Below are positions 6,610-64,000 of a DNA stretch of 64,000 nt, one piece after another. Source of the stretch: a virus. The notes under the pieces are model-generated. The model had not been told where the DNA came from and made no database searches. It was given only the letters and a program-made list of their open reading frames with translations. The stretch lies in IMG/VR virus record IMGVR_UViG_3300046558_000185, positions 1 through 64,000 of that record. One strand, given 5' to 3'. Each line of letters starts with the position of its first letter. Positions within the stretch are counted from its first letter, which is position 1. The position numbers and the translations under genes are program-made.

Positions 6610-6870
6610 ATGGCCTTGGTCAAGAGCATCGAGTTCCGAGACGACGGGTCGCCCGAGGCGGTGACGCTCCGGCTGTCGGCTGACGAGGCCGCGCTGGTGG
6701 CGTTGCTCACCGGTCAGCAGAACTCGGTCCAGGCGGAGGAGCTGCTGCCTCATGGCGGGGCGGTCGCCAGCAGCGCTCTGTACGACGCGACGGCGCAGTA
6801 CGTGTTCGGTCCGTTCTGGGACAACGGCGTCTCTGACTATCTCGACGAGCGTGAACGGCTTCATACCTAG
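6610..6870 (+). CDS. hypothetical protein ending in Leu-His-Thr (86 aa)
   Basis: ATG 6610 is preferred to ATG 6601 because it is correctly spaced (10 nt) from the GAGGAG ending at 6599. A beta-strand/helix start (LVKSIEFRDDG) precedes a helical body. The last three codons are the CTTCATACC motif (6859-6866) just before the stop. No family recognised. Confidence 0.65.
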   Translation: MALVKSIEFRDDGSPEAVTLRLSADEAALVALLTGQQNSVQAEELLPHGGAVASSALYDATAQYVFGPFWDNGVSDYLDERERLHT

Positions 6871-6943
6871 TCGGGTATGCGGGTGCCCAGCGGGGTGCGA
6901 CCCACTGGGCACCTGTCCCACCTACGAGAGGTATCGACTCTCC

Positions 6944-7630
6944 ATGGGACTCCCGAATCGTATCCAGAGCTGGCGAGCAAGACGCGCGAGTAACCGTGAG
7001 ACGGGGTCTGTCTCACCCTCGTCTCACCCGCTCACGGGCCTGCACGCGACCGGTCTGGTCATCGGGTTCACCACGATCCTGGTGGCGCTGGCGTTCGTGG
7101 CGCTGGTCGGTATGAGGGTGAGCTGGGTGCCCCTTCGAGACACCGCCGATGGGATCGGCCTGCACGAGGTGCGGCAGTTCTACCCTCTGGTCATCGACGG
7201 TCTCGACGGCCTGGGGGTGGTGGCCTCGCTGGCGTTGGTCGGCTCCCCGGGATACCGGTGGGCGATCGGCACGGTGGTCGGTCTCACCGCTGTCTCACTC
7301 GTCCTCAACGTCGCTCACGGCTCCGCGTACGCCAGGGTGACCGGGCAGTCAGCGGCGACGACGTGGGGGCACGTGATCCTCGCGTCGGCCGCCCCGACCA
7401 TCTGCATCGCGCTCGGTACGCACCTGGCCGCGCTCACCTTCCACCGGCTGGCGGGAGTGCTGAGACAGCGGCGAGACAGCAGCGAGGTCACCCTGGTCAC
7501 GGCCAGGGAGCTGGCCAAGATCCTTGAGGTGAGTCCGAGCACGATCACCACATGGGTCGACAGGGGCAAACTCACCCCTGTCTCGAAGGACGACAGCGGA
7601 CGCAACCTGTTCAACCCCGCGTCTCTGTGA
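6944..7630 (+). CDS. DUF2637-like membrane protein with C-terminal helix-turn-helix
   Basis: 228 aa from ATG 6944. Four hydrophobic segments (about residues 32-54, 85-97, 102-121, 139-160) match the DUF2637/SpdB-type membrane proteins common on Streptomyces plasmids and integrative elements. Residues ~180-228 form an excisionase/MerR-like winged helix (TARELAKILEVSPSTITTWV). The combination would place a DNA-binding domain at the membrane. Promoter not obvious; it follows the LHT-ending gene after a 73-nt gap. Confidence 0.75.
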   Translation: MGLPNRIQSWRARRASNRETGSVSPSSHPLTGLHATGLVIGFTTILVALAFVALVGMRVSWVPLRDTADGIGLHEVRQFYPLVIDGLDGLGVVASLALVGSPGYRWAIGTVVGLTAVSLVLNVAHGSAYARVTGQSAATTWGHVILASAAPTICIALGTHLAALTFHRLAGVLRQRRDSSEVTLVTARELAKILEVSPSTITTWVDRGKLTPVSKDDSGRNLFNPASL

Positions 7631-7682
7631 CGTCTCGGTGGGGCTCGGAACGCCGGGCCCCACCGCTCCCCAAGGAGGACCA

Positions 7683-7802
7683 GTGAGCATCCGTTCCCTG
7701 CTGGAACACGTCGGCATCGACGTCGGCGACGTCATCTTCATCAACGGCGTCGCCCTGGACGAAGAGCCGGAGACCGACGCCCCCGAATTCGACTGCTCCT
7801 GA
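7683..7802 (+). CDS. small acidic protein (39 aa)
   Basis: AAGGAGG precedes GTG 7683. The product is acidic with a single C-terminal Cys (EFDCS). No family recognised. Confidence 0.55.
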   Translation: MSIRSLLEHVGIDVGDVIFINGVALDEEPETDAPEFDCS

Positions 7803-7812
7803 AAGGCATCCC

Positions 7813-7956
7813 GTGAAGAACCTCGACCAGAACCACGCCCCGTGCCCGAGGCCGTCGAAGGCCGACCTGTGGTTCCAGTCCCTCGGGCGCGTCATCTTCC
7901 GCGTCCTGTGCGTCGCCGCCGGGCTCTACATCGCGGCCCACCTGATCAACGGCTGA
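7813..7956 (+). CDS. small membrane protein (47 aa)
   Basis: GTG 7813 follows GAAAGGCATCC. One predicted membrane span near the C-terminus (VIFRVLCVAAGLYIAAHLI). Function unknown. Confidence 0.55.
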   Translation: MKNLDQNHAPCPRPSKADLWFQSLGRVIFRVLCVAAGLYIAAHLING

Positions 7957-7982
7957 CCAACACCACACGAAACGAGAACGCC

Positions 7983-8501
7983 ATGCTCAACTTCACCGAG
8001 ATCATCGACTCCGTTCCCTCCCTCGACGACGCGCTTCATACCCCGGAGGCCGAGACCTCCAAGCCCAAGCCCGCCACCGTCGAGATCTCCCTGGACGAGG
8101 CGAAGGAACTGCTGGGCCGCGCAGTGAAGGAGCGCGGGGAGGATTACGTCTACGCGCCTCCCCTGGACCCGGAGACGGGCGCCAATCCGTGCGTCTACTT
8201 CAGCCCGGCCGACAAGGCGCCGTCCTGCATGGTCGGCTACGTGCTGTCCTACAAGGGCGTGACGTACGAGGACCTGGCGGCCACGGACAGCACCATCACG
8301 GAGGTCCAGAGCCTGGTCGAGGAGGGGCATCTCAGGGTCGACAACGAGACGCTCGCCTTGCTCACCGTGGCTCAGGTCGAGCAGGACCAGGGACAGACGT
8401 GGGGAAGGGCGCTGGAGGAGGCGCTGGCGACGTACGAGGAGTCCGCCGAGGCCATGGAGACCGACGGCCGCGACGACCCGTCTGAGGACTACTGGTTCTG
8501 A
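7983..8501 (+). CDS. hypothetical protein (172 aa)
   Basis: ATG 7983 follows ACGAGAACGCC. It carries the CTTCATACC motif at codons 18-20. The middle is beta-rich with two Cys; the C-terminus is acidic and aromatic (SEDYWF). Its stop overlaps the ATG of the RlaP gene (TGATG), so it is translated together with the RNA-repair island. Function unknown. Confidence 0.7.
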   Translation: MLNFTEIIDSVPSLDDALHTPEAETSKPKPATVEISLDEAKELLGRAVKERGEDYVYAPPLDPETGANPCVYFSPADKAPSCMVGYVLSYKGVTYEDLAATDSTITEVQSLVEEGHLRVDNETLALLTVAQVEQDQGQTWGRALEEALATYEESAEAMETDGRDDPSEDYWF

Positions 8502-9154
8502 TGACGACGCCGAACATTCTGCTGAGCGGGGTCGTGGGCTCGACTGCCTTCGGCCTGGCCCGGGTCGGGTCGGACATCGACCGGCTGGGCATCTTCATCC
8601 GTCCGACTCCGGAGTTCTTCCGTATTGGTGCTAAGCACCAGGACTCGCTCGTGTCCACGGCTCCGGACGTCACCCTGCACGAGGTCGGCAAGTACGTGAA
8701 CCTCGCGCTGAAGTGCAACCCGACGATCATGGATCTGATGTACCTGGAGGAGTACGAGCAGCAGTCCTGGGAGGGGGAGTGGCTCCTCGACATCCGGGAG
8801 GATTTCCTCTCTGAGCCCTACGTGCGCTCGGCGTACGGCGGGTACGCCATGGGTCAGATCAAGCGCATCAAGCAGGAGCTGGCCAACGACGGCCGACAGA
8901 AGCGTGTGGCGAAGCACGCCCGGCACTGCTTCCGTCTGCTGCGGCAGGGCCAGCAGTTGCTCGACTTCGGCACGCTGACGGTGAAGGTGCCGGACCCGGA
9001 GTTCTACTGGGCGTTCGACGAGATGACCGCCGAGCAGATCGAGAAGGAGTTCTGGAAGGCTTTCGACACCTTCAACGACCGCGTCGGGATCCTTCCAGCG
9101 CAGCCTCGGACGGACCGGCTCCAGGACTTCATCAACTACGTGCGGCGGCTGTAG
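8501..9154 (+). CDS. RlaP-type nucleotidyltransferase (RNA repair)
   Basis: 217 aa with the DNA polymerase-beta superfamily signature at its N-terminus: GS at residues 13-14, then AFGL and the metal-binding SDID (D25, D27). This arrangement, with a long helical C-terminus, matches the RlaP/COG3541 family known to accompany RNA ligases in RNA-repair operons. The RNA ligase and Pnkp genes follow within 3 kb. The exact nucleotide substrate is not known from sequence. Confidence 0.8.
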   Translation: MTTPNILLSGVVGSTAFGLARVGSDIDRLGIFIRPTPEFFRIGAKHQDSLVSTAPDVTLHEVGKYVNLALKCNPTIMDLMYLEEYEQQSWEGEWLLDIREDFLSEPYVRSAYGGYAMGQIKRIKQELANDGRQKRVAKHARHCFRLLRQGQQLLDFGTLTVKVPDPEFYWAFDEMTAEQIEKEFWKAFDTFNDRVGILPAQPRTDRLQDFINYVRRL

Positions 9155-9166
9155 CGGCCTGACCTG

Positions 9167-9207
9167 CGAAGACCCCCTTCGGGACACCCTCCCGGCGGGG
9201 GTCTTCG
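9167..9207 (+). terminator. hairpin terminator
   Basis: CGAAGACCCCC at 9167-9177 pairs perfectly with 9197-9207, followed by TGTTGTG. It closes the operon ending with the RlaP gene. Confidence 0.75.
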
Positions 9208-9260
9208 TGTTGTGTGATGCGCGCCATAGTGTTGCTTGTAAATCGCTTGAGCGAAACCGC

Positions 9261-9289
9261 TTGCGATTACGTCTTCCTCGTTATAGGTT
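9261..9289 (+). promoter_or_regulatory. sigma70-like promoter
   Basis: TTGCGA at 9261-9266, 17 bp, TAGGTT at 9284-9289. It would drive the RNA ligase/Pnkp operon. CGCTTG and CGCTTGCG repeats at 9244-9266 may be operator half-sites. Confidence 0.6.
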
Positions 9290-9348
9290 CTTGGTTATTG
9301 GAAGGCGCCCCACCCGGCGCTAGAGCAACACCTGCTAGGAGCCGCAAC

Positions 9349-9750
9349 ATGAGCACCGCCACCACCGACGAGCAGCGCCGCCTCTACATCCGCGAGTTCC
9401 TGAACAACCAGGGCCACCACGGCCTCGGCGCGGTGCTCGCGGAGATCAACGATGGCGACGCCAGCGACGACTACCTGGACTTCGGCGCCACGCTCCAGAT
9501 ACAGGACTGCTCCCGCAGCGTGACTCTCGACTTCGGTGTCTACGGCCAGACGAACACCGAGGAAGACCGCGACCAGCTCCGCAAGGACCTGGAGAACGCC
9601 CGCGCGAAGGCCGACCGCCTCAAGGGCGCCGTCTACCTCTTCATCGAGAAGTTGGACGAGGCCCTGAGCGACGTCGAGACCGACCTCGACCAGCGGGACC
9701 GCAAGGCCAAGAAGAACAAGAAGGCCAAGAAGGCCGCGAAGAAGGGCTGA
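9349..9750 (+). CDS. hypothetical protein with Lys-rich tail (133 aa)
   Basis: CTAGGAG precedes ATG 9349. A compact N-terminal alpha-beta part is followed by a predicted coiled coil (~80-115) and a tail of Lys/Ala repeats, suggesting nucleic-acid contact. First gene behind the 9261 promoter. Confidence 0.65.
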   Translation: MSTATTDEQRRLYIREFLNNQGHHGLGAVLAEINDGDASDDYLDFGATLQIQDCSRSVTLDFGVYGQTNTEEDRDQLRKDLENARAKADRLKGAVYLFIEKLDEALSDVETDLDQRDRKAKKNKKAKKAAKKG

Positions 9751-9752
9751 AC

Positions 9753-9974
9753 ATGACCGCCACGGACGACCGCCCCACCATGTACCTCGGCCACCTCGTC
9801 ATCCCCCGCGAGAGCGCCGCCCAGGACTGGCTCAAGCGCCAGGGAGAGCAGCGCGAGGCCGCCGTCGAGATCGTCGCCCTTGAGGCGAAGAAGTGGTTCG
9901 GACTGAACCTGCCGGACAGCGCCTACGAGAACTTCGCTCAGCGCGTCGTGGCCGCCATCGACCAGCGAATCTGA
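9753..9974 (+). CDS. small hypothetical protein (73 aa)
   Basis: ATG 9753 lies 2 nt after the previous stop. Helical, with GEQREAAVEIVALEAKKWFG. No family recognised. Confidence 0.6.
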   Translation: MTATDDRPTMYLGHLVIPRESAAQDWLKRQGEQREAAVEIVALEAKKWFGLNLPDSAYENFAQRVVAAIDQRI

Positions 9975-9998
9975 CCACCACCACCGAGGAGCGCACAC

Positions 9999-11099
9999 AT
10001 GGTGCACCTGCACGATGTCCTTCCGGAGAAGGCCCTGCTCGACAACATCACCAAGGGCTACGTCCGCCACCAGACCCACCCCGACGGCAGCCGGGCCATC
10101 TTCAACTACACGAACAAGGCCCAGTTCGACAACGAGTGGAACGAGGTCACCAAGAAGACCCGGGGGCTGATCATCGACACGACCACCGAGAAGGTCGTAG
10201 CCCGGCCGTTCGAGAAGTTCTTCAACTGGTCGCAGATCCCCGCCGACCAGCAGGCGCGACTGATCAACGAGCCGGTCAAGACGTACGTGAAGTGGGACGG
10301 CTCCTTGGGCGTCGGCTACCTGCTTCATACCGGGGAGTTCCGCATCGCCACGCGGGGCTCCTTCACCAGCCCGCAGGCGCAGCACGCGAACAAGATCCTG
10401 GAGACGCGCTACCCGACGTTCGAGCCGATCCTGGGTCTGACGTACCTCTTCGAGATCGTCTTCCCGTCCAACCGGATCGTCGTCGACTACAAGGGCCTGG
10501 ACGACCTGGTCCTGCTCGCGGTGGTCGACACCCAGACCGGTCGCTCGCTGCCGTGGGGGCCCTACGACTGGCCGGGGCCGGTCAACCAGCCGGTCGGCTT
10601 CGAGTCCCTCTCCGAGGTGCTGGCGGCGCCGCAGGAGGAGAACCAGGAGGGCTTCGTCGTCCACTTCCCCGGCCACGACCTGCGGGTGAAGTTCAAGTTC
10701 GACGAGTACGTGCGGCTGCACCGCATCCTGACGAACACCTCGACGCTCACCCTGTGGGAGGCGCTGGCCGAGGGCGACGGGATCGAGGCGATCATCGACA
10801 GCGTCCCGGACGAGTTCTACGACTGGGTCCGCGCGAAGGTCAGCGGCTTGCAGGCTGCGTACACCGACACCCTGGTGGAGGCGCGCGAGGAGTTCGACTG
10901 GATCCTGCGCCGCCTGGTGCGGCCGGAGGACGACGCGCAGAAGCGCCGCAAGGAGTTCGCCCTCCTGGCCTGCGAGAGCCCCTACAGGGACATCCTGTTC
11001 GGCCTGTACGGCGGCCAGGACATCACCTCCCGGGTGTGGAAGCGGGTCAAGCCCGCCTACGAGGTCCCGTTCGCGTCGGTCCCGGAGGCGGCTGCCTGA
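9999..11099 (+). CDS. T4 Rnl1-like RNA ligase
   Basis: 366 aa. The nucleotidyltransferase motif I KWDGS is at residues 98-102 (K98 would be adenylylated), after an RGLIID segment (55-60) and RPFEKFFNW (69-77). Downstream EGFVVHF and LRVKFKF fit motifs IV and V. This order matches the T4 RNA ligase 1 family, which seals cleaved tRNA. It lies between the RlaP gene and the Pnkp gene and near a five-tRNA cluster, consistent with reversal of host anticodon-nuclease damage (inference). Confidence 0.88.
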   Translation: MVHLHDVLPEKALLDNITKGYVRHQTHPDGSRAIFNYTNKAQFDNEWNEVTKKTRGLIIDTTTEKVVARPFEKFFNWSQIPADQQARLINEPVKTYVKWDGSLGVGYLLHTGEFRIATRGSFTSPQAQHANKILETRYPTFEPILGLTYLFEIVFPSNRIVVDYKGLDDLVLLAVVDTQTGRSLPWGPYDWPGPVNQPVGFESLSEVLAAPQEENQEGFVVHFPGHDLRVKFKFDEYVRLHRILTNTSTLTLWEALAEGDGIEAIIDSVPDEFYDWVRAKVSGLQAAYTDTLVEAREEFDWILRRLVRPEDDAQKRRKEFALLACESPYRDILFGLYGGQDITSRVWKRVKPAYEVPFASVPEAAA

Positions 11100-11398
11100 T
11101 GGAGCCCGACGACTTCGGCGGGTGGTTCGAGCGGGCCGAGCTGGTGGGCGGGGAGGAGATCCTCGCCCACCCCCGCAAGGACTGCATCGGCCGCCACTGC
11201 TGCGTTCACAACCCCTCCGCCCACTCCATGGCCGCCTTCCCTCAGCACTTCCGCATGGACCGGGCGCTGATGGAGCGGACCTGTCCCCACGGCGTGGGTC
11301 ACCCCGACCCGGACGACCTCGCCTACAAGCGCCTGATCCAGGGCGAGGACTACCACCCCTACGAGGGCCTGCACGGCTGCGACGGGTGCTGCCAGTGA
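11099..11398 (+). CDS. Cys/His-rich small protein (99 aa)
   Basis: ATG 11099 overlaps the ligase stop (TGATG). Many Cys and His residues (CIGRHCCVHN; CPHGVGH; CDGCC) suggest bound zinc. Its position inside the RNA-repair operon hints at an RNA-related role, but no family is recognised. Confidence 0.65.
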   Translation: MEPDDFGGWFERAELVGGEEILAHPRKDCIGRHCCVHNPSAHSMAAFPQHFRMDRALMERTCPHGVGHPDPDDLAYKRLIQGEDYHPYEGLHGCDGCCQ

Positions 11399-11445
11399 GC
11401 GCCTACAAGTGCAGGTGCTGCGGCCCGAAGAACAAGGAGAAGCCC

Positions 11446-12321
11446 GTGACGATGCTGACGCTGACCATGACCAAGGGACTGCCCGGCTCCGGCAAGAGCA
11501 CCGAGGCGAAGCGGATCGTGGCCAAGGCCCAGCCCGGCACGCTGGTCCGGATCAACAAGGACGACCTGCGCACGATGCTGCACGACAGCGTCTGGCACGG
11601 GAAGAACGAACGCCGGGTCGTGCGGGCCCGCAACGCCCTCGTCGAGGCGTTCCTGGGCGACGGTGTGAGCGTCATCGTGGACGACACCAACCTCAACCCC
11701 AACCACGAGAAGGAACTGCGGCGGCTGGCCGCGTACCACGGTGCGGAGTTCAAGGTCTCCGACCACACGGCCGTGCCGCTTCATACCTGCATCAAGCGTG
11801 ACCTCCAGCGGGATCGGAGCGTCGGCGAGAAGGTCATCCGGGACATGTACAACCAGTACCTGGCCCCGAAGCCTGCCGAGGCGCCCCCGTACGACCCGGC
11901 GAAGCCGAACATGGTCCTGGTCGACATCGACGGCACGCTGGCGCGGATGGTCGGCCGCAGTCCGTTCGAGTGGGACCGGGTCGGCGAGGACGAGCCGATC
12001 AGCGAGGTCATCGACCTGGTGAACACCCTGCGGGACAGCGGCGCGGAGATCGTGTTCCTGTCCGGCCGTGACGGCTGCTGCTACGACCAGACGCGGGCCT
12101 GGCTGGAACTGCACGTGGGCAAGTGGACGCGGGAGGCGTACCTGCATATGCGGGCGCCCGACGACATGCGCAAGGACTCCATCGTCAAGGAGGAGATCTA
12201 CCGGTCGAAGATCGAGCCGTTCTACAACGTGTGGTTCGTCCTCGACGACCGTGACCAGGTCGTGGAGATGTGGCGCCTGCTCGGTCTGCGGTGCCTTCAG
12301 GTGGCTCCTGGAGCCTTCTGA
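11446..12321 (+). CDS. polynucleotide 5'-kinase / 3'-phosphatase (T4 Pnkp-like)
   Basis: 291 aa, close to the ~300 aa of T4 Pnkp. The N-terminal kinase P-loop GLPGSGKS is at residues 11-18. The C-terminal HAD phosphatase has VDIDGTLARM near residue 160 and FLSGRDG downstream. GTG 11446 is preferred because AAGGAG lies 6 nt upstream; an in-frame GTG at 11395 overlapping the previous stop is an alternative. It heals RNA ends (removes 3' phosphate, adds 5' phosphate) so the ligase can seal them. Carries one CTTCATACC motif (11779). Confidence 0.88.
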   Translation: MTMLTLTMTKGLPGSGKSTEAKRIVAKAQPGTLVRINKDDLRTMLHDSVWHGKNERRVVRARNALVEAFLGDGVSVIVDDTNLNPNHEKELRRLAAYHGAEFKVSDHTAVPLHTCIKRDLQRDRSVGEKVIRDMYNQYLAPKPAEAPPYDPAKPNMVLVDIDGTLARMVGRSPFEWDRVGEDEPISEVIDLVNTLRDSGAEIVFLSGRDGCCYDQTRAWLELHVGKWTREAYLHMRAPDDMRKDSIVKEEIYRSKIEPFYNVWFVLDDRDQVVEMWRLLGLRCLQVAPGAF

Positions 12322-14721: not shown

Positions 14722-14779
14722 TTTGTCCAGACGCTGAGCCCTGTTCCTGGACAAATCCTGAACTCAACCCTGAACAGGG
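14722..14779 (+). ncRNA. possible H-type RNA pseudoknot
   Basis: Two interleaved exact complements: TTTGTCCAG (14722-14730) with CTGGACAAA (14747-14755), and CCCTGTTC (14739-14746) with GAACAGGG (14772-14779). The order A-B-A'-B' with no base between B and A' is the geometry of an H-type pseudoknot (9-bp and 8-bp stems, loops of 8 and 16 nt). It starts 2 nt after tRNA-Phe and lies in the leader of the secreted NlpC/P60 gene. Confidence 0.5.
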
Positions 14780-14884
14780 GCGGGAGACCGAATCTTTTGG
14801 GGCGAATCCGCAGACTTATTTGTGGTAGGGAAAGGCACTTACCCGAGCCCGTCACCTAATCTCGTAAGCGTGCGGAGTGCTGTC

Positions 14885-16359: not shown

Positions 16360-17595
16360 TTGAGCACGCTCGCTGAGTACATCGAGGTCGACTGGGTCCG
16401 CGAGATCCTGATGGACCCCAACGTCGGCCACCAGGCCGCCTCCGACGACCTCAACTTCAACGGTGTGGAGACCTCCGAGACCGCCGTCCGGCGCTGGCGC
16501 AAGGCCAACGGCTACAAGCGCAACATCCTGGTCGAGCCGGGCAAGGAGAAGGGGCTTCATACCCTGCCCGAGGAGGGCACGGCCGAGGCAGTGGCCGAGA
16601 ACGAGGAGCAGATCGAGCGGATACAGGCCCTGGAGGCTGACAACCGCCGACTGTTCCAGCAGTTCAAGAAGGCGAAGGCGCGCGGCGACGAGTACATCGA
16701 GGCCGTCTACCGTGCCGCCAGCGACGCCGCGCAGTACGTCGGAGTGACCCCCGTCGAGCCTCCAGCGCGTGACCGCCGTACCAAGCCGTCCGAGGTCGCC
16801 CTGTGGCACCTCACGGACTGGCAGGGCGGCAAGAAGACCGAGACGTACGACCGCACCATCATGCGGACCCGCATCATGCGCTACGTCGAGAAGGCCAACG
16901 AGATCACCGACATCCAGCGCGCCGACCACCCGGTCAAGCACGGCGTCCTGCTGTTCACCGGAGACATGGTCGAAGGCGTCTCGATCTTCCCCGGGCAGGT
17001 GTGGGAACTCGACGGCACCCTCTACGAGCAGATGTTCGACGTCGCCGACCTGATGATCTGGACGATCAAGCAGGCGCTTCATACCTACGAGACGGTCGAG
17101 GTCGTCGCCGAGTACGGCAACCACGGACGTCTCGGCCGCAAGGGCGACGGCATCAAGGCCTCCGACAACGTCGACCGCATGGTCTACAACATCGTGCGCC
17201 AGCGCCTCGCCGACGAGGACCGGCTGACCCGCTTCCAGACGGACGGCGGCTGGTACCAGAACTTCACCATCGGCAACTACAAGGCCATGGCCATCCACGG
17301 CGACGAGATCAAGTCCTTCGGCGGCAACATCCCCGCCTACGGCATCCTCCGCAAGGCCAACCAGTGGGCCTCCGGCGTCCTCCCGGCCTTCCGCGACCTC
17401 TACATCGGCCACTACCACCAGTCGATGCAACTCCAGTTGGCCAACGGCGGCTCCGTCTTCATGACCGGCAGCCCCGAGAGCGACAACATCTACGCCCACG
17501 AGTTCGTCGCGGCCACGGGAGACCCCTCCCAGCGCCTGCACTTCATCAACCCCGAGAAGGGACGAGTCACCAGTGAGTACCGCGTCTGGCTCTGA
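16360..17595 (+). CDS. calcineurin-like metallophosphoesterase
   Basis: 411 aa from TTG 16360 (GAGAGGA upstream). Phosphoesterase motifs occur in order: LTDWQ (near 150-154), GDMV (near 200), GNHGR (253-257), HGDE and GHYH (350-353). An N-terminal helix-turn-helix-like stretch (SETAVRRWRKANGY) and a central coiled coil precede the catalytic domain, suggesting a nucleic-acid substrate. Contains two CTTCATACC motifs. The next gene's start overlaps its 3' end by 23 bp. Confidence 0.82.
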   Translation: MSTLAEYIEVDWVREILMDPNVGHQAASDDLNFNGVETSETAVRRWRKANGYKRNILVEPGKEKGLHTLPEEGTAEAVAENEEQIERIQALEADNRRLFQQFKKAKARGDEYIEAVYRAASDAAQYVGVTPVEPPARDRRTKPSEVALWHLTDWQGGKKTETYDRTIMRTRIMRYVEKANEITDIQRADHPVKHGVLLFTGDMVEGVSIFPGQVWELDGTLYEQMFDVADLMIWTIKQALHTYETVEVVAEYGNHGRLGRKGDGIKASDNVDRMVYNIVRQRLADEDRLTRFQTDGGWYQNFTIGNYKAMAIHGDEIKSFGGNIPAYGILRKANQWASGVLPAFRDLYIGHYHQSMQLQLANGGSVFMTGSPESDNIYAHEFVAATGDPSQRLHFINPEKGRVTSEYRVWL

Positions 17596-17890
17596 CACCA
17601 CCAAGACCCTGGAGAACCCCTTGAGCGTCCTCACCGAGACCGCGTCCGAGCACGAGGCGTCCTACCGCTACATCCAGGACGACGACGGCGAGTACTTCGT
17701 CGCGATCAAGGACGTCGTCGGCACCCTCCTCGAACTCGCCGACAAGTTGGAGGGCCTCGGAGGCATCCAGGAGATCATCGGCAACGCCTTCACCCAGGTC
17801 GCCGTCCAGTTGGCCGACCCCTTCATGGACCTCGACCAGCCCGGCGCGCTTCATATCTTGCCCGGAGGGGCTGCCGGTGCGAACGCCTAG
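17573..17890 (+). CDS. hypothetical protein (105 aa)
   Basis: GTG 17573 overlaps the phosphoesterase gene. Acidic, helical, with a CTTCATATC motif (17849) encoding LHI near the C-terminus. No family recognised. Confidence 0.6.
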   Translation: MSTASGSDTTKTLENPLSVLTETASEHEASYRYIQDDDGEYFVAIKDVVGTLLELADKLEGLGGIQEIIGNAFTQVAVQLADPFMDLDQPGALHILPGGAAGANA

Positions 17891-18071
17891 GGACAACCAC
17901 CTGTGGAAGGTCCGGGTGCTGATCCACAAGGACGGCACCTGGACCGCCAAGACCTTCTTCTACGCCCGCCAGGTCTTCGCCGACCGCTGGCTGGAGCGCG
18001 CCCAGAACAACGACAGCCTGCACATCGACTTCTACGGCAAATACACCCTGGAGGAAGACAGTGTCGCGTAA
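17877..18071 (+). CDS. small hypothetical protein (64 aa)
   Basis: GTG 17877 overlaps the previous gene by 14 nt. Beta-alpha pattern (LWKVRVLIHKDGTWTAKTFFYA). No family recognised. Confidence 0.6.
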   Translation: MRTPRDNHLWKVRVLIHKDGTWTAKTFFYARQVFADRWLERAQNNDSLHIDFYGKYTLEEDSVA

Positions 18072-18300
18072 GACGACAACCACGACCGTGGTCCACAGCG
18101 AGAAGGACGCGGACGGCAACTGGAGCGAGTTCTCCAAGACCATCACCACCGTGGTCGAGCGGGACGACGAGGGATACCCCTACGGCCCCGTACCGCTCCC
18201 CAAGGGCCTCAGCCCCTACGGCTACGGCCCCTACTTCTCCTGGGACTACCTGGGACGCCGCAGCAAGCCCACGGACCAGGAGGACGGCCAGAATGGCTAA
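18061..18300 (+). CDS. small hypothetical protein (79 aa)
   Basis: GTG 18061 overlaps the previous gene by 11 nt. Thr-rich N-terminal beta strands, then a Gly/Tyr/Pro-rich segment (PYGYGPYFSWDY). No family recognised. Confidence 0.6.
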   Translation: MSRKTTTTTVVHSEKDADGNWSEFSKTITTVVERDDEGYPYGPVPLPKGLSPYGYGPYFSWDYLGRRSKPTDQEDGQNG

Positions 18301-47869: not shown

Positions 47870-47899
47870 ATGCGACTTCATACTCGGGCGGTCGCGTAA
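47870..47899 (+). CDS. 9-residue leader ORF MRLHTRAVA
   Basis: ATG 47870 starts 2 nt after the tape measure stop, and its TAA overlaps the ATG of the next gene (TAATG). It contains CTTCATACT in frame as Leu-His-Thr. It occupies the whole gap between two structural genes. Confidence 0.45.
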   Translation: MRLHTRAVA

Positions 47900-50112: not shown

Positions 50113-52555
50113 GCCGATACTGGGCATGTACCGGGGAAGTGTCTCCAATAACCAGGACCCGCTGAATGAGGCGCGGGTTACCCTGCTGATTCCGCAGGTC
50201 CTGGGAAGCGCGGAAAGCGCGTGGGCCGTTCCGGCATCCCCGACGAACACGGTGCCGCCGGTCGGCCAAACCCTGTGGGTGCAGTTCTCCGGCGGAGACC
50301 TCACCAAGCCGGTCTACTCCCCGCTGGGCATCAAGGACGTCCAGGACGCGGTCGACGGCCTGCCGACCGGCGACACCCTCGACACGCTGCCGCCCAAGGA
50401 ACCGACCGCACTGACCCTCACCACGGTGCAGTACGTCACCAACGAGGGATCCACCCTGGCCCGCGTGCAGGCGAGCTGGACCGCGCCGACGGAGAACCAG
50501 GACGGAACCAACCTCACCGACCTCTCCCACTACGTCCTCCAGGTGTCCTACGACGGCACCAACTGGTCCGGGGGACAAGTCACCCAGGACACGCTCGTCG
50601 TCCTCGACGGTCTTCATACCGGCGTGGACGTCACGGTCCGCGTGCAGGCAGTCGACATCTCCAGCAACGTCTCCCTGTGGGCGTCGGCGCACATCACCAG
50701 TGCCTCGTCCTCGACCCCGCCTCCGGTGCCCTCCGCCCCGGGGGTTACCGGTGTGCTCGGCGGCCTGCGCGTCACCTGGGACGGCAAGGACGCCTCCGGG
50801 TTCGCGATGCCCGCGATCTTCTCCCACGTGCAAGTGCAGCGAGACACCGACCCGGCGTTCTCCAACCCGGTCGTCGTCGGCACCCTGCCCGGCCCAGACT
50901 TCCTCTACGACTCCGTCCAGAACTACGCCTCCGCCTACAACTACCGGCTGGTCGCCTACTCCAAGGTCGCCATCGCCTCCGCCCCGTCCAGCGCGAACTC
51001 CGGCACGGCGCACCAGGCAGGCACTGGAGACATCGCGGCCAACTCAGTCACCGCCAACCAGATGGCGGCCGGGACGATCACCGCTGAGTCCGGCGTCATC
51101 GCGTCCATCGACGCCTCCAAGATCACCGTCGGCAAGCTGACCGCGTCCCAGATCGACGCGACCAACCTCGTAGTCTCCGGCGCGAACGTCTCCGGTCAGG
51201 TCTCCTCCGCGTCGACAGCGGGGTCCGCGTCCTCGGCGACCACGGTCACCGGCTCCATCGGCGCGGGCGTCAGCATCCCGGCCAACCAGTTGAACAACGG
51301 CACCATCCCGACCACCACGACGATCAACGGTGGCTCGATCACCACGGGCACCGTCAGCGCGTCCGTTATCGGGGCCCGGTCCATCACCACGGACAAGCTG
51401 GTCATCGGCGATACATCGAACATCATCCTGGACCCCCAGTTCACGCAGAACAGCAGCGCCTGGAATTGGGGTACCAGCGTCGTCCGGACGGCCTCCAGCG
51501 ACCCCAGCGTGACGGTGGGGGCCCCAGCCTCGTGGGTCGCGAAACTCATCTCTCAGACCAGCCTCAACACTGACCTGACGTGGAAGCACAGCGCCGGAAC
51601 GTTGAACGCTATGCCGGTGTCGCCGGGGGAGACCTACTACGTCGAGGCGTGGGTGGCTGCCTCCGCCACCTGCAACAGCAACATGCGGTTCTTCCTTGCG
51701 ACGTCGGACGCAGCAGGCGCCAACACCTCCTGGCCCGCCACCACAAGCCTCGCCCCGTCTGCGGCAACAACCTGGACCAAGATCAGCGGCCAGATCACGA
51801 TCCCGGCCGGGAAGTACCTGGCGACGTTCGGTGTAGGTCCGTCACAGACGACACCGACGACGGCGGCCGGGTACTGGCTCGTCACCAACGTCAAGATGCG
51901 CAAGGCCGTGGACAACGCGCTGGTCGTGGCCGGGTCCATCACCGCCGACAAACTCGATGCCAACGCCATCAACGGCAAGACGATCAACGGTGTCACGATC
52001 ACGGGTTCGTCCACGGTGACCGGCGCGACTGTCCGAAGCGCTGCATCGGGCGCCCGCGTCGAAATGAGCGCGGCCAACCCTGCAAACTTCGCCCAGTTGC
52101 TCTTCTACAGCGCGACGGCGTCTGACCAGCCCGGAGTCCTTTCGGTCGACGGTACAAGCACTTCCAGGTCGCTGGCCATCTACCCTCCGGCAAGTTCCAC
52201 TGCCACGAACATTCCACAGTTCTACCAGGGCTACACGAACAACGGCAGCAAGACGGAGACGATAATCGGCAGCGATGCTATTGAGGTAGAGGGAGTCCTC
52301 TCCGCCAGTAACATCGTCACCGGACGCGTTACCATTACCCCTAATGCCGCTAACGATCCGACGTCGGTAACGATAACCGGGTTGGGACTTATCGGATCCA
52401 GCCCACGGGCGGTGGCCACCCCGTCTACCACCGTGCCTGGCACCTCCGTGACCGGAGTCGGCTGCACAGGAGTCACCACGGATGCGATAACCATCTGGCT
52501 GACCCGCGCCAATACCACTGCTACAGGTGTCGATTACATCGTGATTGCGAGTTAA
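50102..52555 (+). CDS. baseplate spike with OB fold, FnIII-like and fibre-like C-terminus
   Basis: 817 aa. The N-terminal ~75 residues (MYRGSVSNNQDPLNEARVT, PPVGQTLWVQFSGGD) form the gpV/gp5 OB domain. Residues ~95-210 and ~215-300 resemble fibronectin III. A repetitive beta region (TANQMAAGTITAESGVIAS, ITTDKLVIGD) and a carbohydrate-binding-like domain follow. It probably forms the central spike and a cell-surface contact. Carries CTTCATACC (50612). Confidence 0.82.
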   Translation: MSAEPILGMYRGSVSNNQDPLNEARVTLLIPQVLGSAESAWAVPASPTNTVPPVGQTLWVQFSGGDLTKPVYSPLGIKDVQDAVDGLPTGDTLDTLPPKEPTALTLTTVQYVTNEGSTLARVQASWTAPTENQDGTNLTDLSHYVLQVSYDGTNWSGGQVTQDTLVVLDGLHTGVDVTVRVQAVDISSNVSLWASAHITSASSSTPPPVPSAPGVTGVLGGLRVTWDGKDASGFAMPAIFSHVQVQRDTDPAFSNPVVVGTLPGPDFLYDSVQNYASAYNYRLVAYSKVAIASAPSSANSGTAHQAGTGDIAANSVTANQMAAGTITAESGVIASIDASKITVGKLTASQIDATNLVVSGANVSGQVSSASTAGSASSATTVTGSIGAGVSIPANQLNNGTIPTTTTINGGSITTGTVSASVIGARSITTDKLVIGDTSNIILDPQFTQNSSAWNWGTSVVRTASSDPSVTVGAPASWVAKLISQTSLNTDLTWKHSAGTLNAMPVSPGETYYVEAWVAASATCNSNMRFFLATSDAAGANTSWPATTSLAPSAATTWTKISGQITIPAGKYLATFGVGPSQTTPTTAAGYWLVTNVKMRKAVDNALVVAGSITADKLDANAINGKTINGVTITGSSTVTGATVRSAASGARVEMSAANPANFAQLLFYSATASDQPGVLSVDGTSTSRSLAIYPPASSTATNIPQFYQGYTNNGSKTETIIGSDAIEVEGVLSASNIVTGRVTITPNAANDPTSVTITGLGLIGSSPRAVATPSTTVPGTSVTGVGCTGVTTDAITIWLTRANTTATGVDYIVIAS

Positions 52556-58524: not shown

Positions 58525-59052
58525 ATGTTCACCAACTACGCCGACGTGTCCTCCCTCGTCGTCGGCCTGGGCCTACCGGCCGTGGTCGCTCTGTTCTCCA
58601 AGCCGTCCACCAACAGCACAGTCAAGGGAGCGGCGCATGCCGTCCTAGCGGTTGCCACCGGATTCTGGGCTGTCTACCAGGCGCACCCCCAGCACTTCTA
58701 CTGGGCGCCCGCCGTCGTCGCCGCGTTCCTGGCGTGGGTGTCCGGCACGACCTTCTACCACTCGCTGCTGAAGAAGTACTCCTGGTTCGCCCGGCTCCAG
58801 AACACGCTGATCGCGGAGGCGGAGATCCGGCTTCATATCCCGTCCGGGACCGTCGAGGAGTACGTCGAGGAGAGCGCCGTCGTCCCGGCCAGCAGCAACG
58901 CCTTGAGCGCAGAGGCCGTCCAGCAGATCGTCACGGCCCTGGAGTCCGTCCTGCGGCGCACCCTGCCACAGGCAGTCGCGGACGTGGCCGAGGTCCCGGG
59001 CCCGACTGCCGTCTTGTCGAAGTCCATCGACCTCACCGCGTCGGCGGTCTGA
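58525..59052 (+). CDS. holin-like membrane protein (175 aa)
   Basis: AAAGGAC precedes ATG 58525. Three hydrophobic segments (LVVGLGLPAVVALFS; VKGAAHAVLAVATGFWAVY; WAPAVVAAFLAWVSGT) and a charged C-terminal tail. The position after the fibres fits a holin. No separate endolysin gene is visible nearby. Carries CTTCATATC (58831). Confidence 0.65.
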   Translation: MFTNYADVSSLVVGLGLPAVVALFSKPSTNSTVKGAAHAVLAVATGFWAVYQAHPQHFYWAPAVVAAFLAWVSGTTFYHSLLKKYSWFARLQNTLIAEAEIRLHIPSGTVEEYVEESAVVPASSNALSAEAVQQIVTALESVLRRTLPQAVADVAEVPGPTAVLSKSIDLTASAV

Positions 59053-59340: not shown

Positions 59341-59354
59341 TTGTCAAGCCACTT

Positions 59355-59461: not shown

Positions 59462-60682
59462 TTGAGCAGCACCGACCCCATCGCCCTCGCCTTCGCTGGC
59501 TCCGCCGACACCGACATCGACAACGTCAAGGCCCTGCTGAACGACTTCGTCGGCCTGGGCGAGGACGACGCCGACGGCTTCCCCGAGCCCACCGAGCGGG
59601 AAGTCACCCTCATCCTGCCGATCACCAAGAAGCACCTGTCCGACGGCCTGGAGGCCGTTCTGGAGTGGTCGGAGTACGCGGACATCCCGTTCATCGCGGT
59701 CACCGACGGCGAGAAGAGCCGCGCCGTGGACTCCATCCTCAAGGACGCCGAGGAGGTCGTGCGCACGGCCAACGTCACCGCCGGGATCGTCGACCTGCTG
59801 AAGAAGGCCGACAGCGTGGGCGACGCTCACGTCATCCTCCTGTGGGGCGACGAGGGCAGCGAGGAGGCCGAACTCCTCCTGGACGCGGCCGAGGCCGCCG
59901 GGATCAAGGCGAAGGACCTCACGGCCGGACTCGACGACATCTCCTTCGCCAGCGAGCCCGAGGCCGCTCCCGAGCCGGAGCCGGAGCCGGAGCCTGAGCC
60001 GGAGGCGCCGAAGCGTGGCCGCCGTCGCGGACGCCGTGCCGAGCCGGAGCCGGTCGAGGTGGAAGAGGAGCCGCTGACCGAGGACGAGCCCGAGGCCGCT
60101 CCCGAGCCGGAGCCGGAGCCGGAGCCGGAGGCGCCGAAGCGTCGCGGTCGCCGCAAGGCCCAGCCGGAGCCCGAGCCGGAGGCAGACCCGGTCGAGGAGG
60201 ACATCCAGAACCAGGAGAGCCTGGAGCAGGAGGTCGCCCGAGCGCAGCACAAGGCGCAGCAGGAGGCCGCCAAGGCGGTCCCGGACACCGAGATCGACCT
60301 GCTCCTCGTGCGCGCCGCTTTGGAGGGTGCCTACAACGCCTTCCGACTGGAGGACGAGCGCAACGCGGTCATCAACCAGGCCGACGTGCGCGAGCGCCCG
60401 CTGACCGAACTGCTCCGCAAGGCGCTTCATACCCTGGGCGACGCCGCCCAGCAGGAGAAGGCCTCGGAGGCTCCGGCCGCCGAGGAGCAGGAGGAAGAGG
60501 AGTCGACCCCGCGCCGTCGCCGTGGCCGTCCGCGTGACGAGACCAAGACGTTCGCCTACCTGGTCGACGACGAGGGCAACTACAGCCGTCGCGGCCGTGG
60601 CCGGATCCCGGCCGGACAGAAGGTCGTCCAGTTGACGCGGGCGGAGATCGAGGAGAAGGGCCTCGACTTCGACTCGGAGTGA
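59462..60682 (+). CDS. acidic repeat protein with AT-hook-like motif (406 aa)
   Basis: TTG 59462 follows GGAG. The N-terminal ~155 residues form an alpha-beta domain. Two near-identical blocks rich in Glu-Pro and ending in Arg runs (about residues 165-195 and 209-235; DNA 59953 and 60086) follow. A helical segment (~265-325, with CTTCATACC at 60425) precedes RRRRGRPRDE, an AT-hook-like motif, and a C-terminal GRIPAGQKVVQLTRAEIEE. It probably binds DNA or a replication partner. Confidence 0.65.
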   Translation: MSSTDPIALAFAGSADTDIDNVKALLNDFVGLGEDDADGFPEPTEREVTLILPITKKHLSDGLEAVLEWSEYADIPFIAVTDGEKSRAVDSILKDAEEVVRTANVTAGIVDLLKKADSVGDAHVILLWGDEGSEEAELLLDAAEAAGIKAKDLTAGLDDISFASEPEAAPEPEPEPEPEPEAPKRGRRRGRRAEPEPVEVEEEPLTEDEPEAAPEPEPEPEPEAPKRRGRRKAQPEPEPEADPVEEDIQNQESLEQEVARAQHKAQQEAAKAVPDTEIDLLLVRAALEGAYNAFRLEDERNAVINQADVRERPLTELLRKALHTLGDAAQQEKASEAPAAEEQEEEESTPRRRRGRPRDETKTFAYLVDDEGNYSRRGRGRIPAGQKVVQLTRAEIEEKGLDFDSE

Positions 60683-60689
60683 GTAACGC

Positions 60690-60745: not shown

Positions 60746-60798
60746 GCCCACCACACCCCGAGGCCCACCACAAACCCCGAGATGAGAGAGACCCTAGC

Positions 60799-60846
60799 AT
60801 GGGGATATCGCTTCATACTTATCGCTTCCTCGGAGTCGCCGAGTGA
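60799..60846 (+). CDS. 15-residue leader ORF MGISLHTYRFLGVAE
   Basis: ATG 60799; its TGA overlaps the GTG start of the replication gene (GTGA). It contains CTTCATACT in frame as Leu-His-Thr, and TATCGCTT flanks it. A GAGAGAG purine run lies upstream. It may couple or attenuate translation of the next gene. Confidence 0.45.
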   Translation: MGISLHTYRFLGVAE

Positions 60847-61826: not shown

Positions 61827-61834
61827 CCGACCCG

Positions 61835-61866
61835 AAGGGGCGGGCTGCTGCGGCGGTCCGCCCCTT
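61835..61866 (+). terminator. hairpin terminator
   Basis: AAGGGGCGG at 61835-61843 pairs exactly with CCGCCCCTT at 61858-61866. Confidence 0.7.
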
Positions 61867-61948
61867 ACGCATTCCAAAGGCGTATCCGAGAAGCAATAAC
61901 TGTGGTAGCCTGCTGAGCGTTGACCCACCACCACAGGAGGTACCGACC

Positions 61949-62608
61949 ATGGCGACAGACCCCCGGGTCCACGCCCTGCGCCTGAAGGAGTACGGCATCC
62001 CGGCGCACTACCGCCACCTGCGGCTTCATACCGTGGCGGACGCCGCGCCGCGCGCCGCCTGCCAGACCTGGCTCGACAACCTGCGCGACCACTACGTCAC
62101 CGACAAGCGCCCGCTCGACCAGTACCCCGAGGACTGGTCCCAGATCGGCAAGGGCCTGCTGTTCGTCGGCCCTCCCGGCACCGGCAAGACCTCCCTGGCC
62201 ACGGCCACCCTGCTGGAGGTCTACTTCGAGAAGCGCCTGCCGGTCCACTGGCTGGCCTACGCCGACTTCGTGAAGGACTCCATCGAGAAGATGGGCCTCC
62301 AGGACCGGCACGAGCCCGAAGCCGTCGCCCGCTGGTGGGAGATCCAGGACAAGATCGTGGCGGCCGAGAAGGCCCCCGTCCTCCTCCTGGACGACGTCGG
62401 CAAGGAGCACCGCACCAAGACCGGCTACGCCGAAGGCCTGCTCGACACCCTCCTGCGCCAGCGTCACCGCGAGGCCCTGCCCACCCTGGTCACCTCGAAC
62501 CTCCCGCCCCGGGAGTGGGGCGCCGTCTACAACCCCACGATGGGCTCCTTCATCCAGGAGGCCTTCACCCACCTCACGATCGTCGGAGGAGACCGCCGTG
62601 CAGCATGA
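61949..62608 (+). CDS. DnaC-like helicase loader ATPase
   Basis: 219 aa from ATG 61949 (CAGGAGG upstream). Walker A GPPGTGKT at residues 74-81, Walker B VLLLDDVGKE, and sensor-like TLVTSNLPP match AAA+ DnaC/IstB-type loaders. The DnaB-like helicase lies 700 bp downstream. Carries CTTCATACC (62024). Confidence 0.87.
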   Translation: MATDPRVHALRLKEYGIPAHYRHLRLHTVADAAPRAACQTWLDNLRDHYVTDKRPLDQYPEDWSQIGKGLLFVGPPGTGKTSLATATLLEVYFEKRLPVHWLAYADFVKDSIEKMGLQDRHEPEAVARWWEIQDKIVAAEKAPVLLLDDVGKEHRTKTGYAEGLLDTLLRQRHREALPTLVTSNLPPREWGAVYNPTMGSFIQEAFTHLTIVGGDRRAA

Positions 62609-62843
62609 GCAGATGGTCCTCCCCTTCGAGGACGAGATTTTGTCAGTTGTCTACAAAGACGAGATCCTGTCGACGATCACCGGCAGGTTCCCCGAGCAGC
62701 AGCACACCGTCAGCATGCTGAAGCGCCTGGCCTGGGCCCGCGCCAAGAGTCTCGGCTTCCGGCCCTTCCGCTACAGCGACCGGCGCGAGGTCCGGGGCAA
62801 CCGGCTTCATATCTGGCTCCGCGCGGACGCGGAGCGAACCTGA
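62598..62843 (+). CDS. small hypothetical protein (81 aa)
   Basis: GTG 62598 behind GGAGGAG; overlaps the loader gene by 11 nt. Helical, basic. Carries CTTCATATC (62805). No family recognised. Confidence 0.65.
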   Translation: MQHEQMVLPFEDEILSVVYKDEILSTITGRFPEQQHTVSMLKRLAWARAKSLGFRPFRYSDRREVRGNRLHIWLRADAERT

Positions 62844-63286
62844 TGCAGGGCGGGGACATAAGCAACGAGGTCTCCCCGCGCCTGGTCGTCGTCTTCGAAG
62901 GCCTCCTGGGCAACCTGCCCACCGCACGTACCCGAGCTGGCGAAGCCGTGGCCCGCCGCGCTCACCAGTGGAAGCGCGCGGTGAAGGCCTACGAGATCAA
63001 CGAGCCGCTGGCCCACGTCATCTGGGACACGGTCTGGCGCCACCGGTACTCGGTCGACGTCATCACCTACCTGGGCGACGAGTTCGCCGAGGCCCTGGAA
63101 TGGCGCCTGGACATCGAGGGCCTGCCCATCGGCCGCATCTGGGCCGACGAGCCGAAGAAGCTGGCCCGCCGCCTGGCACACATGCCGGACGTCGCAGCGA
63201 TCTTCGACAACGAACACCACCTGATCTACGGCAGCAAGGGGCGCATGCTCCCGGCCGTACCCACCACCCTGATCGGAGCCATGTAG
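62843..63286 (+). CDS. possible degenerate HAD-like protein (147 aa)
   Basis: ATG 62843 overlaps the previous stop. LVVVFEGLLGNLP sits where HAD phosphatases have DxDGTL; RYSVDVITYLGD and PDVAAIFDNE would match later HAD strands. The catalytic aspartates are missing, so it is probably non-enzymatic if HAD-related. Family assignment is tentative. Confidence 0.5.
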   Translation: MQGGDISNEVSPRLVVVFEGLLGNLPTARTRAGEAVARRAHQWKRAVKAYEINEPLAHVIWDTVWRHRYSVDVITYLGDEFAEALEWRLDIEGLPIGRIWADEPKKLARRLAHMPDVAAIFDNEHHLIYGSKGRMLPAVPTTLIGAM

Positions 63287-64000
63287 TGGCGGACTTCGAG
63301 CGGCTGCTCGTCTCCCGCGTCATCCAGGACAAGGACCTGACTGACGTCGCGGACGCGGGCATCACCCCCGACTTCTTCGGCGACCCGGACAACCGGGCCG
63401 TCTTCAAGGCGATCCTGCGGCACAAGGGCACCTACGGTGAGGTGCCGTCCCTGGCCACGATCAAGACGGACTTCCCCACCTACAAGTTCGTCAAGGTCGA
63501 GGACAGCATGAACGTGCTGACCGACCGGCTGCGGGAACTTCATACTTTGGCCCTGCTGGAGCAGGGCCTGGCCGACTCGGTCGACGCACACGAAGAGGGC
63601 GACGCGCTGGCCGCGATGGCGGCCCTGCACAAGACCCTGGCGGACATCGCCTCGGCCGTACCCAACGCCCGCGACACTGACCTGACGGAGACCGGCCAGC
63701 AGCGCCTCGCGCGGTACCTCACGCTCAAGGACCTGCCCGACGGGCTCCGGGGGATCCCCACCGGCTTTACGACGATCGACAGGGCCACCCAGGGCCTCCA
63801 GAAGGAGCAGTTGGTCACCTTCGTCGGCCCGCCGAAGGCCGGTAAGTCGACGCTGCTCCTGCTGGCCGCCATGGCCGCCCACCTGCACGGCGAGCGCCCG
63901 CTGTTCATCGGCTTCGAGATGAGCAACGAGGAGCAGGAGGAACGCTTCGACGCCATTCGCGCGGGGATTTCCCACGCCCGGCTGAGGAATGGAACGCTCA
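63286..64000 (+). CDS. DnaB-like replicative helicase (3'-truncated by window)
   Basis: GTG 63286 overlaps the previous stop; the frame is open to the window end. An N-terminal helical domain is followed by IPTGFTTIDRATQGLQKEQL, Walker A VGPPKAGKST (K187) and FIGFEMSNEEQEER, as in DnaB/RepA-type helicases. Carries CTTCATACT (63538). Confidence 0.88.
   Translation, partial: MADFERLLVSRVIQDKDLTDVADAGITPDFFGDPDNRAVFKAILRHKGTYGEVPSLATIKTDFPTYKFVKVEDSMNVLTDRLRELHTLALLEQGLADSVDAHEEGDALAAMAALHKTLADIASAVPNARDTDLTETGQQRLARYLTLKDLPDGLRGIPTGFTTIDRATQGLQKEQLVTFVGPPKAGKSTLLLLAAMAAHLHGERPLFIGFEMSNEEQEERFDAIRAGISHARLRNGTL

Follow-up and report, generated by a model that had tools for sequence, protein, structure and literature searches.

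The stretch analysed here, called the window, comprises positions 1 to 64,000 of the IMG/VR virus record IMGVR_UViG_3300046558_000185 (66,565 bases in all) and holds part of a contractile-tailed phage, with matches to terminase, portal, major head protein, tail sheath, tape measure and baseplate proteins as well as a tail tube stretch. The phage also encodes a serine and a tyrosine recombinase, an XRE-DUF5753 regulator, five tRNAs and an RNA repair set consisting of RNA ligase, polynucleotide kinase and RlaP. By tail sheath its nearest named relatives are Streptomyces phages at ~48% identity, and a single prophage relative was found in reference genomes, in Nonomuraea, with 45% sheath identity; the family is one of soil phages that probably infect Streptomyces and are probably temperate. 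Scattered through these genes is a short word, CTTCATAY, whose distribution, relatives and possible reader are the subject of this report.

Exact copies of CTTCATAY number 23 in the window, 22 on the plus strand and one on the minus strand, the very set listed in an earlier reading made from the sequence alone (the sequence-only reading), and the over-representation claimed there stands, as 100 dinucleotide shuffles of the window (C 34%, G 31%) gave a mean of 0.60 and a maximum of 3. The whole record contains 24 plus-strand copies and one minus-strand copy, compared with 0 and 1 matches for the control pattern read backwards. The word is sharp, the plus-strand single-base variants of CTTCATAC occurring 0-3 times each except for CTTCATAT, which occurs five times. 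The base 3' of Y is C in 19 of the window words and T in 4, and the extended unit is CTTMATAYY, often accompanied by a short hairpin of variable sequence whose commonest start lies 2 nt further on. All 21 words inside called genes are in frame 0 in the sense direction, and the remaining two, at 47876 and 60811, are in frame within micro-ORFs (very short open reading frames) of 9 and 15 codons, so that the word is always in frame as Leu-His-Thr/Ile, as had been claimed; the minus-strand copy (27934-27942) is in frame in a leftward ORF, and the exceptions named earlier, CTGCACATC near 2362 and 18017 and CTTCACACC near 22549, are present. A codon-aware shuffle giving similar counts had been named as grounds for dropping the claim, and it did not give them: 60 codon-preserving rounds over the called genes of this genome yielded, per round, 0.15 words in frame 0 together with 0.05 in frame +2 and 0.10 on the antisense strand, against 23-25 real words.

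A tail sheath scan of virus contigs brought up 77 related loci. Among 20 records searched (genomes and loci bear our G and L labels) nine are rich in CTTCATAY, with 13-46 copies on the main strand and 0-1 on the other, five have 1-3 copies and six have none, and near relatives poor in CTTCATAY carry CTTAATAC instead. The 18 near genomes accordingly divide into nine C-type genomes with zero CTTAATAY and nine A-type genomes with 0 or 1 CTTCATAY, counts that are not independent, since near-copies such as G000, G001 and G006 are among them. The base is switched at most homologous sites: over ten genomes, some near-identical, the C sites aligned with A genomes read CTTAATA in 356 of 490 comparisons, CTTCATA in 3 and neither in 131, and A sites aligned with C genomes read CTTCATA in 360 of 490 and neither in 130, whereas within a type the word is kept in 628 of 695 (C) and 270 of 292 (A) comparisons. 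The 525 words of the 18 genomes form 79 orthogroups, 37 of them shared with the base switched, 24 C-only and 18 A-only, one of the last being a wrong-type background word, CTTCATATT (G022-G024). An aligned counterpart of the other type was available for 16 of the C-only and 12 of the A-only orthogroups, and its letters are often CTGCACACC at C-only sites or CTGAAC followed by other letters at A-only sites; since these differ little from the word, many sites arise by few, often synonymous, changes.

The codons of the word are fixed. In six C-type genomes Leu-His-Thr/Ile is written CTT CAT in 181 of 203 cases and Leu-Asn-Thr/Ile is written CTT AAT in 0 of 39, and in four A-type genomes the corresponding figures are 1 of 15 and 116 of 135. 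Among same-type relatives the synonymous third base of codons one and two of the word agrees in 96.9% of 1432 cells, versus 78.4% of 144,295 cells at flanking third positions (both types pooled), a test confined to gapless alignments below 97% identity, with gapped alignments and near-identical rows left out. Relatives therefore do not change these codons freely, which the sequence-only reading had offered as the other way of refuting it; of its Leu-His-Thr/Ile observation the fixed codons stand, and the amino acids themselves are beside the point, His being Asn in A-type genomes. Because this one-base change from His to Asn is concerted and the rest of the word is held, comparison of the sequences indicates that CTTMATAY is a nucleic-acid signal and not a peptide motif.

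With near-identical rows left out, the nearest flank belongs for most sites to the same type (195 C, 189 A); for 17 C-type and 4 A-type sites the nearest flanking relative, by up to ~6 identity points, is of the other type and yet carries the other word, suggesting that sites tend to follow the type of the genome rather than local ancestry. In the tail sheath tree (42 rows, 34 labelled, one of which, L075, is labelled C from a single background word) the types need four changes, at least two of them forced by well-supported branches. Wrong-type words in A-type genomes number four, namely CTTCATATT in G022, G023 and G024 and CTTCATACC in G002. An outgroup scan of G014-G018, G021, Alone3 (100 of 116 kb), pSt2308 and BRock (50 of ~113 kb each) found no word that combined strong enrichment with a hairpin behind it: TCTGATC in G017 had a hairpin z of 9.4 without enrichment (11 copies vs 8.0 expected), and CTAGAAG in G021 (32 copies vs 3.9) resembles a stop codon plus ribosome-binding site.

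Counting from the C of CTT as position 0, pairing of the 5' strand of the hairpin at +11 to +15 was 0.68-0.76 over 266 sites in eight genomes compared with 0.35-0.37 in controls, while word positions 4-6 were left unpaired (0.11-0.13 vs ~0.6). A scan of 7-mers for enrichment plus hairpin placed the word with offset 11 at the top in both A-type G005 (z 10.3) and C-type G008 (z 12.0), the opposite strand reaching at most 2.7. Stem scores of at least 12 were obtained in 50 of the 79 orthogroups against a background of 17%, and of the 64 first members with a stem of such a score, offsets 6-17 being allowed, 27 have it beginning at 11 and 41 within 10-12. Stems have 4-9 bp, most commonly 5 or 6, and loops measure 3-6 in 35 of 55, with varied letters. 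The 42 orthogroups that include places with and places without the word have stem scores of 12.3 and 8.7, respectively (background 8.85; Wilcoxon p 7e-4), and this difference is biased downwards, since two of the places scored as "without" contain the word displaced by two bases. As sites are gained and lost, word and hairpin on average come and go together, and sites that arose inside conserved protein segments often have no hairpin.

An in-frame start upstream without an intervening stop precedes 520 of 521 own-type words, the remaining one running off its contig, compared with 61% of random plus-strand positions. Of 349 words in ten genomes, 305 lie in called genes in the sense direction, all in frame 0, 2 are antisense (G004 85918 and G019 minus 2007, singletons taken as background) and 42 fall outside the calls, which were made by a home-made script that missed small genes. 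Opposite-strand words are in frame in leftward ORFs in orthogroups 26, 58 and 63 and, within orthogroup 8, in a single member from G013; the only other opposite-strand word is the G019 singleton. In seven orthogroups the word sits in a micro-ORF that is at most 30 codons long and has, by a loose rule, a Shine-Dalgarno-like match (those printed have 6-22 codons), and some end Leu-Asn/His-Thr-stop. Words lie within 12 codons of gene starts in 51 of 305 cases and of gene ends in 36, where 18 each are expected. As CTTAATA gives TAA or TTA-ATA in the other frames, an A-type word is expected in frame 0 at any site. Codon-preserving shuffles summed over six C-type genomes gave 1.45 words in frame 0, 0.05 in +1, 0.75 in +2 and 1.68 antisense, from which ~64% of sense words are expected in frame 0, whereas 19 of the 24 C-only orthogroups lie in called genes in the sense direction and all 19 are in frame 0 (~2e-4 if independent; two others are antisense singletons and three have no gene call). 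Since the words follow gene direction, have in-frame starts and sit in micro-ORFs, we favour reading the word as an mRNA signal that would act during translation. The earlier preference for such a role over a DNA site limited by codon tolerance gains support from the sense-side hairpin, the leftward in-frame words and the micro-ORFs, and is tempered by the A-type frame, for which codon tolerance alone is a sufficient explanation.

Which phage protein changes with the word was assessed by ranking 146 families by how sharply they split by type, with only G008 proteins as queries and families of fewer than two A or three C members left out. The sharpest split, with a gap of 18.8, belongs to a small HicA-like protein of ~70-97 amino acids, whose lowest identities within types are 60 and 71 and whose highest identity between types is 42 (measured over 7 C and 5 A genomes with gaps taken as differences). 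It is followed by a 64-amino-acid protein (gap 15.0; within 75 and 75, between 60) and a 96-amino-acid protein of unknown function (gap 10.1; within 83 and 88, between 73); the tyrosine recombinase also splits by type, by 2.2, and the XRE-DUF5753 regulator does not, its identities being 64-78% within and across types. All 11 C-type HicA-like loci have CTTCATA and zero CTTAATA, and all 11 A-type loci have CTTAATA, 10 of these with one CTTCATA besides, so that all 22 near loci agree with the word type, many of them being the same or near-identical contigs. With a repressor-like gene on one side and the recombinases on the other, the gene bears at its 3' end CTTCATATC in an orthogroup of seven C-type genomes and CTTAATACC in G005, while five other A-type loci that were read have the near-match CTTAATCTC there. 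Just 3' of the A-type gene stands the CTTCATATT of G022, G023 and G024, which has no in-frame start and is taken as background, and a short intergenic stretch like CATCCCGGGTACCATTAA is kept 3' of the gene in both types (L163, L167-L170, L172, L175).

The predicted fold of the protein has the order alpha-beta-beta-beta-alpha, with a model confidence (pLDDT) of 74, and in a comparison with solved structures places three to seven are taken by the HicA entries 5yrz, 4p78, 6hpb and 6g26 together with 1whz, a Thermus protein (Z 4.4-4.7). The Pfam model HicA_toxin (PF07927) finds some match in four of five whole records, none over the cut-off. A G-N-H triplet is invariant in 11 of 11 aligned rows, drawn from 11 of 23 loci with A-type L168 and L169 left out because the stretch ran into a stop; it fits the G-x-H of HicA, whose catalytic His with an upstream Gly is described in the portions of PMC11594946 and PMC11373665 bearing on it. 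A profile search of solved structures returned chance-level matches only, no relative was found in 50,697 phage records at E 1e-3, and the HicB antitoxin model PF15919 had no match in five of five records, other HicB models not having been searched. A distant relative (46%) is L178 in record G021, a 100-kb phage contig without CTTNATAY enrichment in which no target word was found. We propose the HicA-like protein as the best candidate for the recogniser of the word.

The sites of the window and the two candidate genes are collected in Table 1. Beside them, a ydaO/yuaA cyclic di-AMP riboswitch (14751-14884, 68.8 bits) lies directly 5' of an NlpC/P60 gene (14885-15382) within the tRNA region, and the RlaP, RNA ligase and polynucleotide kinase genes are clustered at 8501-12321, two of the three carrying words. 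A leftward gene of 694 amino acids (G008 16528-18612, minus strand) is common to C-type G008 and A-type G002 and G005 at 84-94% and is not in four other C-type records (G007 best at 30%), which indicates module exchange across types.

Table 1. Words, associated hairpins and candidate recogniser genes in the window.
Feature	Coordinates	Strand	Remark
Word CTTCATACC	6859-6867	+	TAG stop directly after; no clear hairpin at usual spacing
Word CTTCATACC, 5-bp hairpin 8045-8060	8034-8060	+	
Word, 9-bp hairpin 10335-10360	10323-10360	+	In RNA ligase-like gene
Word, no clear hairpin	11779-11787	+	In polynucleotide kinase-like gene
Word, 5-bp hairpin 16565-16579	16555-16579	+	
Word, weak stem, C-only site	17077-17085	+	Aligned A-type letters CTCCAGGTC or CTCCAGATC
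Word CTTCATATC, 4-bp hairpin 17860-17871	17849-17871	+	
Word, no clear hairpin	18820-18828	+	8 codons past TTG start
Word CTTCATATC, no clear hairpin	23326-23334	+	3' end of HicA-like gene
Word, no clear hairpin	25340-25348	+	
Sole minus-strand word 27934-27942, weak 4-bp stem	27910-27942	-	In frame in leftward ORF; orthogroup 26
Word, 6-bp hairpin 36413-36428	36402-36428	+	2 codons past start ATG
Word CTTCATATC, weak stem, C-only site	39712-39720	+	
Word, 6-bp hairpin 43845-43860	43834-43860	+	4 codons past start GTG
Word, 8-bp hairpin 47713-47731	47703-47731	+	Near 3' end of tape-measure-like gene
9-codon micro-ORF 47870-47899, word at 47876	47870-47907	+	8-bp hairpin 47887-47907 over start codon of next gene (47899)
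Word, 8-bp hairpin 50622-50643	50612-50643	+	
Word CTTCATATC, no clear hairpin	58831-58839	+	
Word, 6-bp hairpin 60435-60450	60425-60450	+	
15-codon micro-ORF, word at 60811, 6-bp stem 60822-60846	60799-60846	+	Stop overlaps start of gene at 60843
Word, 5-bp hairpin 62035-62059	62024-62059	+	
Word CTTCATATC, 8-bp hairpin 62816-62835	62805-62835	+	
Word, 8-bp hairpin 63549-63568, C-only site	63538-63568	+	A-type letters CAGCACACC
HicA-like small protein, 81 amino acids, candidate recogniser	23095-23340	+	
64-amino-acid protein, alternative candidate	17877-18071	+	Second-best split by word type

The word lies in frame 0 on the sense strand, stems tend to begin ~2 nt downstream, and M is C or A according to the phage set, switched at most homologous sites. 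Based on these observations our preferred explanation is that CTTMATAYY, often with its hairpin, serves in phage mRNA as a signal read during translation. With CUU in the ribosomal P site, +11 falls at about the mouth of the mRNA channel. A ribosome that has reached CUU-MAU would have the hairpin at this mouth and, because the stem begins there, would be expected to slow or pause with CUU in the P site and MAU in the A site; a phage-encoded factor that distinguishes C from A at M would then act on the exposed word. The HicA-like protein may be this factor, binding or cutting the message, with CUUCAUACC (C-type) and CUUAAUACC words plus hairpin as two specificity types of RNA target. The likeliest outcome would be a genome-wide post-transcriptional shut-off in which the candidate gene also regulates itself, perhaps in the prophage or to keep out superinfecting phages of matching type. 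Silencing seems a better guess than activation, given that the sites span most modules and that the candidate gene itself carries a site or a near-match and is placed between the repressor-like gene and the recombinases. Recogniser and output are both inferred, and this explanation taken as a whole has about an even chance. The complete proposal, in which a dispersed, ribosome-read code word CUU-MAU-AYY, often with a hairpin, is recognised by a cognate HicA-family protein and controls the whole phage genome post-transcriptionally, is given a probability of roughly one in three.

Several points weigh against this proposal. HicA has been described as translation-independent, which predicts no frame rule. 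The link to the HicA-like protein is a correlation over two lineages that are partly separate and supply few distinct sequences, its gap is inflated by a 14-residue insertion in the A-type version, the 64-amino-acid protein splits almost as well, and the short L176 tallies one CTTAATA to one CTTCATA. As to membership in the HicA family, the match to PF07927 (5e-5) scores 23.7 bits against a cut-off of 27, the record without any match is that of A-type G005, unrelated YkfF and CyaY chains outrank the HicA chains in structure comparison, and Foldseek found no match for the model at E 0.001. As to the hairpin, a clear stem is missing in 29 of 79 orthogroups, and near-miss words (n=11) score 7.6-11.4, where the top value belongs to CTTGATA, a word of only 7 copies. 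Covariation is weak, since double-change cells are still paired in 28 of 58 cases (48%) versus 21-50% for slid partners, and changed cells overall keep pairing in 25% versus 31-43% in slid controls. The A-type frame can be explained by codon tolerance alone, A-type G002 holds one C-type CTTCATACC, and both the host and the temperate lifestyle are inferred.

One rival explanation places the word on DNA: a phage repressor bound to the asymmetric word, as at stoperators, would block RNA polymerase, and the frame would be a by-product of codon tolerance. The number of words, their dispersal, their orientation along transcription and the type-specific change all resemble stoperators, the A-type word can sit only in frame 0, and because the sheath tree puts the A-type rows outermost in the near group, shared C-type sites may have inherited their frame. 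A DNA-level role predicts neither frame nor hairpin, however, and here a one-sided hairpin stands at a preferred spacing, 520 of 521 words have an in-frame start, words occur in micro-ORFs, each of the 19 C-only orthogroups that lie sense in a called gene is in frame 0 against 64% expected, and the XRE-DUF5753 regulator is not among the type-splitting families; we regard this explanation as unlikely. Equally doubtful is that the element does work on mRNA and that its recogniser is the 64-amino-acid protein, the tyrosine recombinase, an unlisted protein or an RNA guide, with the HicA-like protein a bystander. The gaps of 15.0 and 2.2 speak for the first two, but the 64-amino-acid protein has no domain match over cut-off and hence no known RNA-binding domain, perfect complements of the word number 0 or 1 per genome (a search confined to perfect complements), and it is the HicA-like gene that itself bears the word or a near-match.

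A ribosome pausing or recoding signal that needs no factor, serving for example folding or frameshifting, would fit the frame lock, the rare T-ending codons and the hairpin at pausing distance, but it has no need for one exact word or for a genome-wide switch from C to A, and we hold it to be improbable. Frameshifting in particular was rejected, as all 135 of 135 A-type words, unlike C-type words, run straight into a stop in the -1 frame, the +1 stops are widely spread and no alternative-frame product is common to the sites. tRNA supply was likewise rejected as the cause, tRNA-His being present in C-type G000, G001, G006, G007 and G008 and missing from the C-type genomes G004 and G013, where the other four tRNAs occur. 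Selection for a Leu-His/Asn-Thr peptide at the protein level would explain why the word is always in frame and is next to inconceivable, given the fixed codons (CTT CAT in 181 of 203, CTT AAT in 116 of 135); it was rejected because His becomes Asn in A-type genomes with no change in CTT or the third T.

Returning to a message-borne word read during translation, the element points to an undescribed phage control system on translated messages. As the sites are frame-locked, often have a hairpin and in some cases lie in micro-ORFs, they are probably read by the ribosome during translation or by something that acts on the ribosome. A literature search found no description resembling the element or such a class of phage regulation, which is no proof of absence in print. 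If the proposal is right, a one-base switch in tens of words together with a protein would create a new specificity type, amounting to a translational immunity or self-silencing code, and phage gene control, possibly immunity too, would have gained a further layer whose specificity switch is on display in natural variants; a solitary HicA-like phage protein would gain a testable target, and codon-in-context recognition would become directly testable.

Among known systems, the nut sites of phage lambda (boxA-boxB) also consist of a linear RNA word followed by a hairpin, but they are few, follow no frame rule and have a hairpin recognised by its sequence, whereas the present words are many and frame-locked and their hairpin letters vary. 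Frameshift and bypass signals combine codons with a hairpin a few nucleotides away; unlike these, the present element occurs in many copies per genome, and no shared alternative-frame product was found. Nut sites and bypass signals thus each resemble it in a single feature. The candidate protein shares its small size and its G-x-H with HicA mRNA interferases and its phage origin with phage HicA-like proteins, among them gp91 of Adephagia, and its predicted alpha-beta-beta-beta-alpha order fits theirs; it differs from them in falling below the Pfam cut-off, and no HicB was found with the model PF15919; the accessible text on these systems, gp91 included, describes no dispersed target word. Cluster A mycobacteriophage stoperators, as the relevant sections of PMC6550527 and PMC9283540 present them, are 13-bp asymmetric DNA sites bound by a helix-turn-helix repressor, situated in promoters and short intergenic spaces with some placed in genes. 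Tens of dispersed asymmetric words in one orientation along transcription, changing by type in step with a phage protein, are common to both, so far as those sections go. Unlike stoperators, the words described here are not confined to promoters or short intergenic spaces, 305 of 349 lying in called genes; they stand in ORFs in a single frame, often with a hairpin, and the protein that splits with them is HicA-like. The system may perhaps be seen as a post-transcriptional or translational counterpart of the mycobacteriophage stoperators.

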